DNA from: Natronomonas sp. CBA1123
Lineage (GTDB): Archaea; Halobacteriota; Halobacteria; Halobacteriales; Haloarculaceae
Assembly: GCF_009741925.1 (NCBI RefSeq)
Contig: NZ_WPCC01000004.1
Span: 62,001-126,000 of the forward strand
Length of the DNA stretch: 64,000 nucleotides
Direction of reading: 5' to 3'
Positions 25,980 to 29,216 of the stretch are shown piece by piece. Both the position numbers and the translations under genes were made by a program. The notes under the pieces are model-generated. The model was not told the origin of the DNA, did not search any database, and was given only the letters and a program-made list of their open reading frames with translations. Positions within the stretch are counted from its first letter, which is position 1. Each line of letters opens with the position of its first letter.

Positions 25980-25989
25980 GCGGCGGTGG

Positions 25990-27333
25990 TTACTCTTCGA
26001 CCCGTCGCCGGACCGAGTTCGCCAGTTCGGCAGCCTCCTGTGGCGTCTTCGCTTCGGCGTAGACGCGGACGTACGGTTCGGTCCCGCTCGGACGGACGAG
26101 CGCCCACGATTCTTCGAAGTCGACGCGGTAGCCGTCCAGCGTCGTCTCTTCGCCGTTGGCACTCGCAGCCCACGCCTCTGCTCGCTCCATGATGGCCGCC
26201 CGCTCGCTCTCGCCGTCGTAGGGGACGTTCTCGCGTTCGAAACTGTACCCCCGGTGCGGTTCGAGGAGGGCACTCGCCGGGCGGTCGGCGAGCAACTCGA
26301 GGAACCGGGCCGCCACGTAGCCGCCGTCGCGGCCCAACCGATGGGCCGGGTACACGATACCGCCGTTGCCCTCGCCGGCTATCGGGACCGAGACGCCCGC
26401 CTCCCGGAGTTCCCGCGTGCGACTGAGTACGTAGGTGTTGCCGATGGGGGTGTACTCGACGGTGCCACCTGCGGCCTCGGCGACATCGCGGAGTCGCAGA
26501 GATGCGTTACACGTGGTCACGACCGTCTCTCCCTCGTCCAGCTCCGCGGCGGCGAGTGCCGCAAACGCCGCGTTGCCGTCGACGAACGCTCCTGATTCGT
26601 CGACGAACACCACGCGGTCGGCGTCGCCGTCGTGGGCGATACCGAGGTCGGCGTCGGAGGAGGCGACGAACGACAGCAACTCCGTCAACTCGTCTTCGAC
26701 CGGTTCGGGGTCGCGGCCGGGAAAGGCCCCGTCGGGTTGGGCGTTGAGCGTCTCCACCTGACAGCCGAGACGCCGGAACAGCGCCGGCGAGGTGAGCGCA
26801 CCGGCGCCGTTTCCGGGGTCGACGACGACGGTCGGTGCGGCCTCGCGTATCGTCTCGCGGTCGACCGACTCGACGACGCTTTCGACGTACTCGTCGGCGG
26901 CACTCTCGACGGTCCGTGACTGCCCGGTCGACTCGGGGGCCGCCGCCGAGACGCTCTCTTCGGCCAGCGACGCGACCGCCTCGACTGCTGTCGGTTCGAG
27001 AACGGAGCCATCGCGGCCGACAAGTTTCACGCCGTTGTGGTCGGGTGGGTTGTGCGAGGCCGTAATCTGGAGGCCCGGTATCGACCGCGTTTCGACGTAG
27101 TGCTGTAACGCCGGCGTGGGGACGACCCCGAGACGGTCGACGGTCGCCCCGACGTTTTCGGCGCCGGCGGTCGCGACGTGGTCGAACATCTCGCCGGTCG
27201 TCCGGGTGTCACGGCCGATGGCGACGCGGTCGGCCTCCCAGTAGGCCGTCGCAGCGCGTGCGAGTTCGAAGACGCGCTCGGCCGTGACGGTTCGGTTGGC
27301 GACCCCTCTGATACCCATTCGTCCGAAACTCAT
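25990..27333 (-). CDS. Phosphosugar mutase (phosphomannomutase/phosphoglucosamine mutase family)
   Basis: 447 residues from the ATG at 27333 (MSFGRMGIRGVANRTVTAER). Alpha-D-phosphohexomutase landmarks: the phosphoserine loop TASHNP at 91-96 (Ser93), the magnesium loop DGDADR at 235-240, the sugar loop AGEGNGGIVYP and the phosphate-binding RPSGTEPYVRVYAEA near the C-terminus. It interconverts 1- and 6-phosphates of mannose, glucose or glucosamine; motifs do not fix which. It is convergent with the GNAT gene (ten-base gap). Confidence 0.93.
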   Translation of the reverse strand: MSFGRMGIRGVANRTVTAERVFELARAATAYWEADRVAIGRDTRTTGEMFDHVATAGAENVGATVDRLGVVPTPALQHYVETRSIPGLQITASHNPPDHNGVKLVGRDGSVLEPTAVEAVASLAEESVSAAAPESTGQSRTVESAADEYVESVVESVDRETIREAAPTVVVDPGNGAGALTSPALFRRLGCQVETLNAQPDGAFPGRDPEPVEDELTELLSFVASSDADLGIAHDGDADRVVFVDESGAFVDGNAAFAALAAAELDEGETVVTTCNASLRLRDVAEAAGGTVEYTPIGNTYVLSRTRELREAGVSVPIAGEGNGGIVYPAHRLGRDGGYVAARFLELLADRPASALLEPHRGYSFERENVPYDGESERAAIMERAEAWAASANGEETTLDGYRVDFEESWALVRPSGTEPYVRVYAEAKTPQEAAELANSVRRRVEE

Positions 27334-27379
27334 CGCCGGCGCTACGCGGAGCACCCACTTGGGTGTCCGGTTCGGTCGG

Positions 27380-28645
27380 TCAGGCGTTCTCGTCGAGCCA
27401 CGTCTGCATGGCCTCGTATTGCCCCGACTGGTCGCTGACGACGCGGTGAACGTCGTCGTCGGTGATTCCCGCGAGTGTCGCGTCGATGGCCTCCCGACAG
27501 GCGCGTACCCCGCCGGCGACGGACGAGAGCAGGTCGTCGCTCGGATACGAGTAGATGGCCGACCCGACGACGAACAACTGCTCCGTGTCGTAGTCGGGTT
27601 CGTCGACACTCCCCGTCCCGATTTGCATGTTCCGGTGGATGTTCTCGGGGCTGACCTGGTGGGAGACGACGGGGAGCGTCCGTTTGAACTCGCTTCCCAA
27701 CCGCCGCCGATTGCCGCGAAGGACGCTCTTGCAGGTGTAGATGTGGCTCCGAGAGCGGGAGTGGTCGCCGGCGACGTTGCCGGTGTGGGCGGAGTCGGCG
27801 CCGCTGAGTCGGAAGAGTTTCTCGAGGACGTCCAGCGCGATGCCGTGATTCGTCTGTGTGTAGACGCCGTGGCCGGCCCAGTGTGCGTGAATCGGATACT
27901 GGAACTCGTCGTCGTCGGCGATTCGCTCCATGTGGTCGAACCCCGAGGAAACCGGCGACTGCATCAGGACTATCGACTCCTTCACGTCCGAGAGGTCGAT
28001 TTCGGGGTCTGGGCCGGTCGTGAGGCGTTTGAATCGCTGGGTTTCGCCGGTGACGTTGAGGACGTACAGCGGGCGTCGTCCGGTTTCGGATTCGATTTCG
28101 CGGAGCGCGGAGACGATGGCTCGGATGCGGTCCTCCAGTGGACAGTACGCCGGCGAGACGAACTTGATGTCCTCTTTGACGACGTCGACGCCGTTGACGC
28201 CCGCCTTCACGGCGATGTCGTGCATCCGTTCGGGCGTCAGTCCGGCCGGTTTGAGGATGAGCCCGAGCATCGGGCGGTCGTCGACGCCGGCACGTTCTCT
28301 GAGGGTTTCGATGCCGTACTGGGGTCCGGGGAACCGCTTTACGAACTCCGGCGGGAAATCGATGCCAGTGATTTTTATTTCGGAGACGTAGCCGGCGTCG
28401 AAGAGGTCTCCCCCGATGTAGTTGAGGAGCTGTGACGTGCTCGCAGTGATGTTTTCGACCGGGAAGGCCACCTCGACGGTCCGGTCGCCGTATCTCGTGA
28501 CGCTCGCCTCGTAGTCGCCGTCGACTTTGTCACCGAACCCCCAGCGGTAGTTGCCGAGCGACTGTGATTTCGCGATTTTCTCGCCGATTCGGTGAATGTT
28601 CGCGTCGTCGTCCCCGATACGGTATTCGACCAGTATGTCGCTCAT
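27380..28645 (-). CDS. RubisCO-like protein (form IV-type, most catalytic residues altered)
   Basis: 421 residues aligned by eye end to end with archaeal form III RubisCO (for example FPPEFVKRFPGPQYGIE and RPMLGLILKP). Catalytic positions compared: K132 matches K175, but K177 is Ala; K157 and D159 match K201 and D203, but E204 is Ile (VVKEDI); H255 matches H294, but R295 is Trp (HAHWAGHG); the loop-6 lysine K334 is Asp (NVAGDHSR); the SGG and GGG phosphate loops are changed (VVSHQVSP, QIGTGSV). Carboxylation is therefore unlikely; an enolase- or isomerase-like reaction, as in other form IV proteins, is possible. Its ATG overlaps the upstream stop by four bases. Confidence 0.85.
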   Translation of the reverse strand: MSDILVEYRIGDDDANIHRIGEKIAKSQSLGNYRWGFGDKVDGDYEASVTRYGDRTVEVAFPVENITASTSQLLNYIGGDLFDAGYVSEIKITGIDFPPEFVKRFPGPQYGIETLRERAGVDDRPMLGLILKPAGLTPERMHDIAVKAGVNGVDVVKEDIKFVSPAYCPLEDRIRAIVSALREIESETGRRPLYVLNVTGETQRFKRLTTGPDPEIDLSDVKESIVLMQSPVSSGFDHMERIADDDEFQYPIHAHWAGHGVYTQTNHGIALDVLEKLFRLSGADSAHTGNVAGDHSRSRSHIYTCKSVLRGNRRRLGSEFKRTLPVVSHQVSPENIHRNMQIGTGSVDEPDYDTEQLFVVGSAIYSYPSDDLLSSVAGGVRACREAIDATLAGITDDDVHRVVSDQSGQYEAMQTWLDENA

Positions 28646-29118
28646 AGGCGCTCGACCACCTCGTCGATGCGCGCTTCGAGCGACTGAATCTCGTTGCGGA
28701 AGTTCCCGACGCGGCTTCGGTCGATGTCGGCGCGGTCGGTCGCTATCAGCTGCTCTCTGAGGAATCGCTGCTGTGTGCTGATGCGCTCGATGTCGTCGTA
28801 CACCGCGTTGAGTTCCCGCTGGAGGTCCTCGGAGAGCAGCGAGAACGTCCCGCTCGAAACGCCGGACTCGTAGCTGCCGGTCGGAAAGGCTATCGTCGGC
28901 GGTACTTCCCCCTCCCAGTTGCCGATGTTCTCGCTGATTCCCCCGAGCTCGCCGGCGATGGAGTCGCGAAGTCGCTGCCGGTCGTCCCGTTCGCGCTCGG
29001 CCTGTAGGTGTCGTTCGCGCCGCGCCGAGAGTTGATGCCCCAACAGGGCCCCCATCCCGACCGCGAGGAAATCGGCGATGTACACCGGTGATATCAACCA
29101 GTCCACCACGATGTCCAT
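28642..29118 (-). CDS. Membrane-anchored coiled-coil protein coupled to the RubisCO-like gene
   Basis: 158 residues from the ATG at 29118 (MDIVVDWLISPVYIADFLAV). One membrane span lies near residues 12-32 (IADFLAVGMGALLGHQL), then a charged helix QLSARRERHLQAERERDDRQ (33-52), a central Gly/Ser-rich loop, and a second helical region to the C-terminus (ELNAVYDDIERISTQQRF and SLEARIDEVVERL). No catalytic motif or family recognised. Its TGA overlaps the next ATG (ATGA), so synthesis is coupled to the RubisCO-like protein. A GTG- or ATG-initiated longer form from 29151 is possible. Confidence 0.65.
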   Translation of the reverse strand: MDIVVDWLISPVYIADFLAVGMGALLGHQLSARRERHLQAERERDDRQRLRDSIAGELGGISENIGNWEGEVPPTIAFPTGSYESGVSSGTFSLLSEDLQRELNAVYDDIERISTQQRFLREQLIATDRADIDRSRVGNFRNEIQSLEARIDEVVERL

Positions 29119-29216
29119 TACCGAACACGATAGTAAAACAGTTTCCTGCAACCCCCGTGTGATGCGACAACGTCCGAACCGGCGAACGCTTAAAAACCGC
29201 CACCCTAATCGGGGGT

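Follow-up and report, generated by a model that had tools for sequence, protein, structure and literature searches.

The window, a 64,000-nucleotide stretch of DNA from Natronomonas sp. CBA1123, encodes a real and constrained, probably non-carboxylating RubisCO-like protein (RLP) of what is probably a new, very rare clade of haloarchaeal proteins. Our preferred explanation, to which we assign a probability of about one-half, is that this RLP operates in a two-gene module with a membrane-anchored partner, and that the window genus has lost an ancestral metal/bisphosphate site. The relevant features are collected in Table 1.

Table 1. Genes and active-site positions at the RLP locus (RubisCO numbering for positions; window residues named first)
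Feature	Coordinates	Strand	Remarks
Block carrying glmM, RLP and partner genes (~3.2 kb)	25986..29172	.	Between GNAT gene and KH-domain gene
GlmM-type phosphoglucosamine mutase gene	25990..27333	-	Codirectional, 46 bases downstream of RLP; NCBIfam Arch_GlmM 479 bits (cut-off 439)
RLP gene, 421 aa, intact ORF	27380..28645	-	ATG at 28645, stop 27380-27382
S362-A363, G403-G404 phosphate loop (GG to SA)	27557..27562	-	Alignment; sisters have S-G
S328-H329-Q330, S379-G380-G381 phosphate loop (SGG to SHQ)	27656..27664	-	Alignment; sisters keep SGG
D294 at loop-6 K334 position	27764..27766	-	Alignment; followed by clade-wide His (H295)
H255-W256 (H294 retained, R295 to Trp)	27878..27883	-	Alignment; sisters keep Arg
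K157-E158-D159-I160, metal-triad remnant K201/D203/E204 (E204 to Ile)	28166..28177	-	Alignment; sisters read KEDE
D80 at N123 position (N123 to Asp)	28406..28408	-	Asp in 4/4 clade members, 0/115 others
S27 at E60 position (E60 to Ser)	28565..28567	-	Alignment; G048 and G283 keep Glu
Partner gene, 158 aa	28642..29118	-	Single hydrophobic span at the N terminus followed by long helices; ATGA overlap between its stop and the RLP start

An intact gene with a predicted RubisCO fold

The window RLP matched Pfam RuBisCO_large (PF00016) with an E value of 1.8e-25, and it scored far below the cut-offs of the NCBIfam models for form III (TIGR03326; 160 bits, cut-off 497), MtnW (two equivalog models; 117.5 bits, cut-off 513.6, and 150.5 bits, cut-off 409) and OiaX (equivalog model; 133 bits, cut-off 700). 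An AlphaFold2 model, built from a 27-row alignment, had a mean pLDDT of 89 and a pTM of 0.90, with both the N-terminal domain and the barrel present. When the model was searched with Foldseek, the best matches among solved structures were RubisCOs, including form III enzymes, with TM-scores to the query of about 0.82-0.86. By these models the RubisCO fold is retained, and the same statement in the first-pass annotation is borne out.

A canonical and complete form III RubisCO is encoded on a different contig of the host genome (G000:C12, L002); the window RLP is therefore a second, divergent homologue, and the possibility that it is the only RubisCO of its host is ruled out. Comparison with the 98%-identical gene of a congener, G117, gave a dN/dS of 0.11 (95% confidence interval [CI], 0.04-0.21), similar to that of adjacent housekeeping genes, so the gene is constrained now. 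Together with a codon-position GC content of 0.63/0.42/0.84, this value shows that the RLP gene is neither a chance ORF nor a decayed one.

A four-member clade apart from haloarchaeal form III and MtnW

Close relatives of the window RLP were found in four haloarchaeal genomes only: the window species, G117, and two more distant lineages, G048 (44% identity) and G283 (43%), referred to here as the sisters. Every genome of the window's family (146) was searched, along with 171 of the family of G283, 125 and 26 of two other families, and samples drawn evenly from the class, order and phylum. A scan of genome contigs returned distant GOS-like RLPs only, a plasmid scan returned other RLP groups only and no partner gene, and viral contigs gave no matches to either gene. 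No description of such haloarchaeal RLPs was found in a literature search.

The four sequences formed one clade with support of 100/100 in two maximum-likelihood trees, which took in no full sequences of the IV-Photo group or of the R. rubrum MTRu-1-P isomerase. AU tests rejected a grouping of the clade with MtnW (P = 0.0008) and one with haloarchaeal form III (P = 0.00017), and disfavored its union with methanogen form III (P = 0.026); the best trees place the clade outside forms I-III, but a tree uniting it with forms I and III taken together was not rejected (P = 0.25). A sister relationship to the OiaX-like group received weak support (88/80 and 85/80). The clade is thus separate from haloarchaeal form III and from MtnW; the first-pass annotation had proposed a separate lineage, which is upheld, and firm placement inside active form III did not occur. 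All four members share N123D, K177S/A, K334N/S/D followed by a histidine, and G403S.

Loss of active-site residues in the window genus

Active-site positions were compared in an L-INS-i alignment of the window RLP with 115 other superfamily sequences (window residues in parentheses). Seven positions are retained, K175 (K132), K201 (K157), D203 (D159), H294 (H255), H298 (H259), H327 (H287) and S379 (S328), and many others have changed: E60 to Ser (27), N123 to Asp (80), D202 to Glu (158), E204 to Ile (160), R295 to Trp (256), K334 to Asp (294), T65 to Asn and W66 to Tyr, as well as the phosphate-loop glycines G380 to His (329), G381 to Gln (330), G403 to Ser (362) and G404 to Ala (363). The K177 position (133) is occupied by Ala or by a one-residue deletion, with no Lys. 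No lost residue reappeared at a shifted position in the alignments checked, including K334, E204 and R295, and independent MAFFT runs agreed, which rules out an alignment artefact as the source of the losses. Every residue call of the first-pass annotation proved correct in this alignment (K177, E204, R295, K334 and the glycine loops changed; K175, K201, D203 and H294 kept).

In RubisCO the C1 phosphate is bound by T65, W66, G381, G403, G404 and K334, and the C5 phosphate by R295, H327 and S379. The window RLP lacks the complete active site of form III; the residues for RuBP carboxylation that are altered comprise K177, E204, R295, K334, E60, N123 and the phosphate loops, in support of the earlier view of a haloarchaeal RubisCO-like protein that is not a carboxylase. 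That the change of E204 to Ile is unusual was also confirmed: of the 115 other sequences, 110 have Glu and 5 have His at position 204, and Ile was seen only in the window RLP and its 98%-identical congener.

The same substitutions had been offered as the definition of the lineage, and here the first-pass annotation was not sustained. Both sisters retain E60, E204 (as KEDE), R295, the SGG loop and G404, which rules out the E204-to-Ile set as a mark of the whole lineage; by sequence comparison, these losses arose later, within one genus. Among residues with at least 95% conservation in the compared carboxylases, 37 are kept in both sisters, and 10 of these are lost on the window branch; by the same reckoning, G048 and G283 each lost 0 of 27 (Fisher test against both sisters pooled, 5e-5). 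Retention at other sites was 55% on the window branch versus 75-77% in the sisters, and the losses may in part reflect general acceleration; highly conserved sites normally resist rate acceleration. In the sisters, T65 is replaced by Gly, W66 by Tyr and G403 by Ser, and K334 is absent, so that they appear to keep the metal site and a C5-type phosphate site, with the C1-type site changed. This is the reverse of the pattern in MtnW, which lost R295 and H327, whereas the sisters keep both and alter the other phosphate site.

The window RLP could still be metal dependent if D80, together with E158, replaced the carboxylate of E204 and supported a modified enolization. Going by RubisCO structures in general, the N123 position would lie near enough to the metal. 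Asp at this position is confined to the clade (4 of 4 members, 0 of 115 others); K157, D159, H255, H287 and K132 are all retained, and the low dN/dS indicates strong constraint. However, R295, E60, G380, G381 and G404 are gone as well, leaving the phosphate sites largely lost, and we consider this alternative unlikely.

A conserved gene pair with a predicted membrane protein

The gene immediately upstream of the RLP gene goes beyond what the first-pass annotation had described. Its product is modeled by AlphaFold2 as all-helical (pLDDT 83); its one membrane span is predicted from hydropathy and falls where the model is least confident, and we take the protein to be a predicted single-span helical membrane protein. 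Only sub-threshold matches were found in Pfam and NCBIfam, a Foldseek search gave no significant match to a PDB fold, and PADLOC returned no significant match for either the RLP or the partner. Homologues of the partner, with 29-30% identity, lie directly upstream of the RLP gene in G048 and G283, with an ATGA overlap at the junction in G048, as in the window, and a short gap in G283. In comparisons of 20 kb around the three loci, the RLP and partner genes were the only genes in common, and a partner search of 242 genomes of the class gave strong matches only in the two with the RLP. The partner genes of the window species and G117 differ by 13 synonymous and 0 nonsynonymous substitutions.

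Because the partner is adjacent in all three lineages and its strong matches in the class were confined to genomes with the RLP, the pair can be regarded as a conserved module, and the ATGA overlaps in the window and G048 indicate that it is translationally coupled. The G048 and G283 genomes hold no other RubisCO homologue, and the module is therefore independent of RubisCO. We infer physical contact between the RLP and its partner, and a location at the membrane; the window RLP probably has a different job, at the cell membrane.

The surroundings of the pair differ among the lineages. The phosphoglucosamine mutase gene (glmM) has no counterpart near the G048 and G283 loci and is confined to the insertion in the window genus; a core role in the module is therefore improbable and was rejected. 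There it entered the site between the GNAT and KH-domain genes together with the RLP pair (25986-29172). In G118 and the majority of the other congeners the GNAT and KH-domain genes are adjacent, which suggests that the common ancestor of the window species and G117 acquired the ~3.2-kb block. The G283 module adjoins IS200/IS605 genes and a fragment encoding the C-terminal portion of an APH-type kinase, and the G048 module adjoins a divergent FGGY-type kinase; these non-conserved kinase neighbours are weak hints of sugar-phosphate metabolism. On the G283 locus (L117, 7257-9371), the truncated APH-type kinase gene directly precedes the partner gene and has, just upstream of itself, an IS200 transposase gene and one that is TnpB/Cas12f-like; the kinase fragment matches S-methyl-5-thioribose kinase weakly (26.8 bits against a cut-off of 275). 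In the 20-kb comparisons the window, G048 and G283 loci had no methionine-salvage genes and no apionate genes in common. In haloarchaea, the degradation of nucleosides involves RubisCO or, in its place, a RuBP phosphatase (PMC9700705); this analysis gave no evidence linking the window RLP to that pathway.

Such a distribution might also be expected of a mobile, defence-like conflict module, in which a RubisCO-fold metabolite sensor would act with a membrane-anchored helical effector. The pair is very rare and patchy, occurs in unrelated genomic contexts, was inserted within the 3.2-kb block in one genus, and adjoins IS200/IS605 genes in G283, and its partner is single-span and helical. Set against this are the housekeeping neighbours in the window, the absence of the pair from the viral contigs scanned, and the lack of a significant PADLOC match for both proteins; an anti-phage defence system of a known type is ruled out, with no PADLOC model matching. 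A conflict module therefore seems to us distinctly improbable.

Comparison with characterized RubisCO-like proteins

The window RLP shares with form IV RLPs (MtnW/YkrW, OiaX-like, AfulRLP-type and 3qfw/GOS-like proteins) the RubisCO fold, retention of K201 and D203, and alteration of K177 and K334. It differs in belonging to a clade separated at 100/100, in the N123-to-Asp change, which occurs in no other compared sequence, in the E204-to-Ile change and SHQ loop of the window genus, and in having a membrane protein as its constant neighbour. Form III RubisCO, including that of the host (L002), is similar in fold and overall length, provides the best structural matches and is about 26-31% identical; however, the window RLP is changed at at least 10 universal active-site positions and lies outside the haloarchaeal form III clade. 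The AfulRLP-type proteins (L105-L114) have R295M and H327V and keep K334, where the window RLP has W, H and D, and the two form separate clades; the 3qfw/GOS-like RLP has E204 changed to His and K334 to Arg, in place of Ile and Asp.

Further RubisCO homologues were noted among the sequences collected. In the same phylum, several genomes encode AfulRLP-type proteins (L105-L108, L111-L114) alongside form III RubisCO. Two genomes of a single genus elsewhere in the phylum (G677, L097; G752, L099) carry another degenerate RubisCO homologue, with K175R, N123R, H294Q, R295I, H327Y and K334H in L097 and R295S, H327F, G381E and Asn at 403 and 404 in L099; this homologue groups beside haloarchaeal form III with strong support. 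On haloarchaeal plasmids (L078, 3782-6506; L079, 3800-6450), OiaX-like RLP genes adjoin genes for four-carbon acid sugar kinases, a pairing that suggests sugar-acid catabolism, as known in rhizobia.

A further alternative is that the window RLP is a known RLP enzyme in disguise, whether MtnW (DK-MTP-1-P enolase), MTRu-1-P isomerase or OiaX (3-oxo-isoapionate-4-P decarboxylase). OiaX and its haloarchaeal relatives are the possible sister group in the trees, with the weak affinity given above, and likewise have K177 replaced; the kinase fragment beside the G283 module, with its weak S-methyl-5-thioribose kinase match, also counts in favour. Yet OiaX-like proteins keep E204, R295, K334 and a GGG loop, and several of their genes adjoin genes for an aldo/keto reductase or a four-carbon acid sugar kinase, which the window RLP lacks; the sugar-acid catabolic neighbours expected for OiaX were not seen at the window, G048 or G283 loci. 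MtnW is also a non-carboxylating RLP that retains K175, K201 and D203, but its residue at 295 is Pro and that at 327 is not His, and a common clade is rejected by the AU test. Scores far under the OiaX and MtnW cut-offs (133 of 700 and 117.5 of 513.6 bits), signature residues that are not the same in the alignment, and loci with no methionine-salvage or apionate genes in common likewise argue against a known activity, which we judge very unlikely.

A decaying pseudogene of an enzyme might show the loss of many catalytic residues and the fast window branch, but this reading is largely refuted by the intact ORF, the high model confidence and a partner gene without nonsynonymous change, and above all by a dN/dS (0.11; CI, 0.04-0.21) like that of neighbouring housekeeping genes.

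A proposed history of the module

The preferred reading, of a non-carboxylating RLP paired with a membrane-anchored partner, is drawn from a clade of four sequences, two of them nearly identical. Under it, the ancestral RLP, as in G048 and G283, would have a metal site, with K201, D203 and E204 kept, and bind a phosphorylated metabolite there; a C5-type phosphate site (R295, H327, S379) would be kept as well, with the C1-type site and the loop-6 lysine altered. Because the metal and C5-type sites are kept and the C1-type site and K334 are changed, the suggested ancestral chemistry would be of the enolase or isomerase type, acting on a one-phosphate substrate. The window genus would then have lost E204, a metal ligand, R295, a phosphate ligand, E60 and both glycine loops, while purifying selection persisted. 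Its RLP would no longer run the ancestral metal-dependent reaction. Tethered by the partner, it may now bind a ligand, play a regulatory or structural part, or have an altered chemistry.

A bolder version, which we put forward only tentatively and think rather doubtful, is that in the window genus the RubisCO fold has become a metal-free, membrane-tethered ligand-binding or regulatory protein within a horizontally spread module, the sisters remaining metal-competent enzymes. If true, this would provide a natural enzyme-to-pseudoenzyme series inside the RubisCO superfamily.

RLPs illustrate the reuse of one enzyme fold, and to our knowledge all variants characterized to date are soluble enzymes. 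The clade described here combines two lineages with a complete metal site and one stripped member under clear selection, and the membrane partner offers a direct handle on function. Haloarchaea are amenable to genetic manipulation, and the function of a RubisCO fold without its metal and phosphate sites is now directly testable in these organisms.
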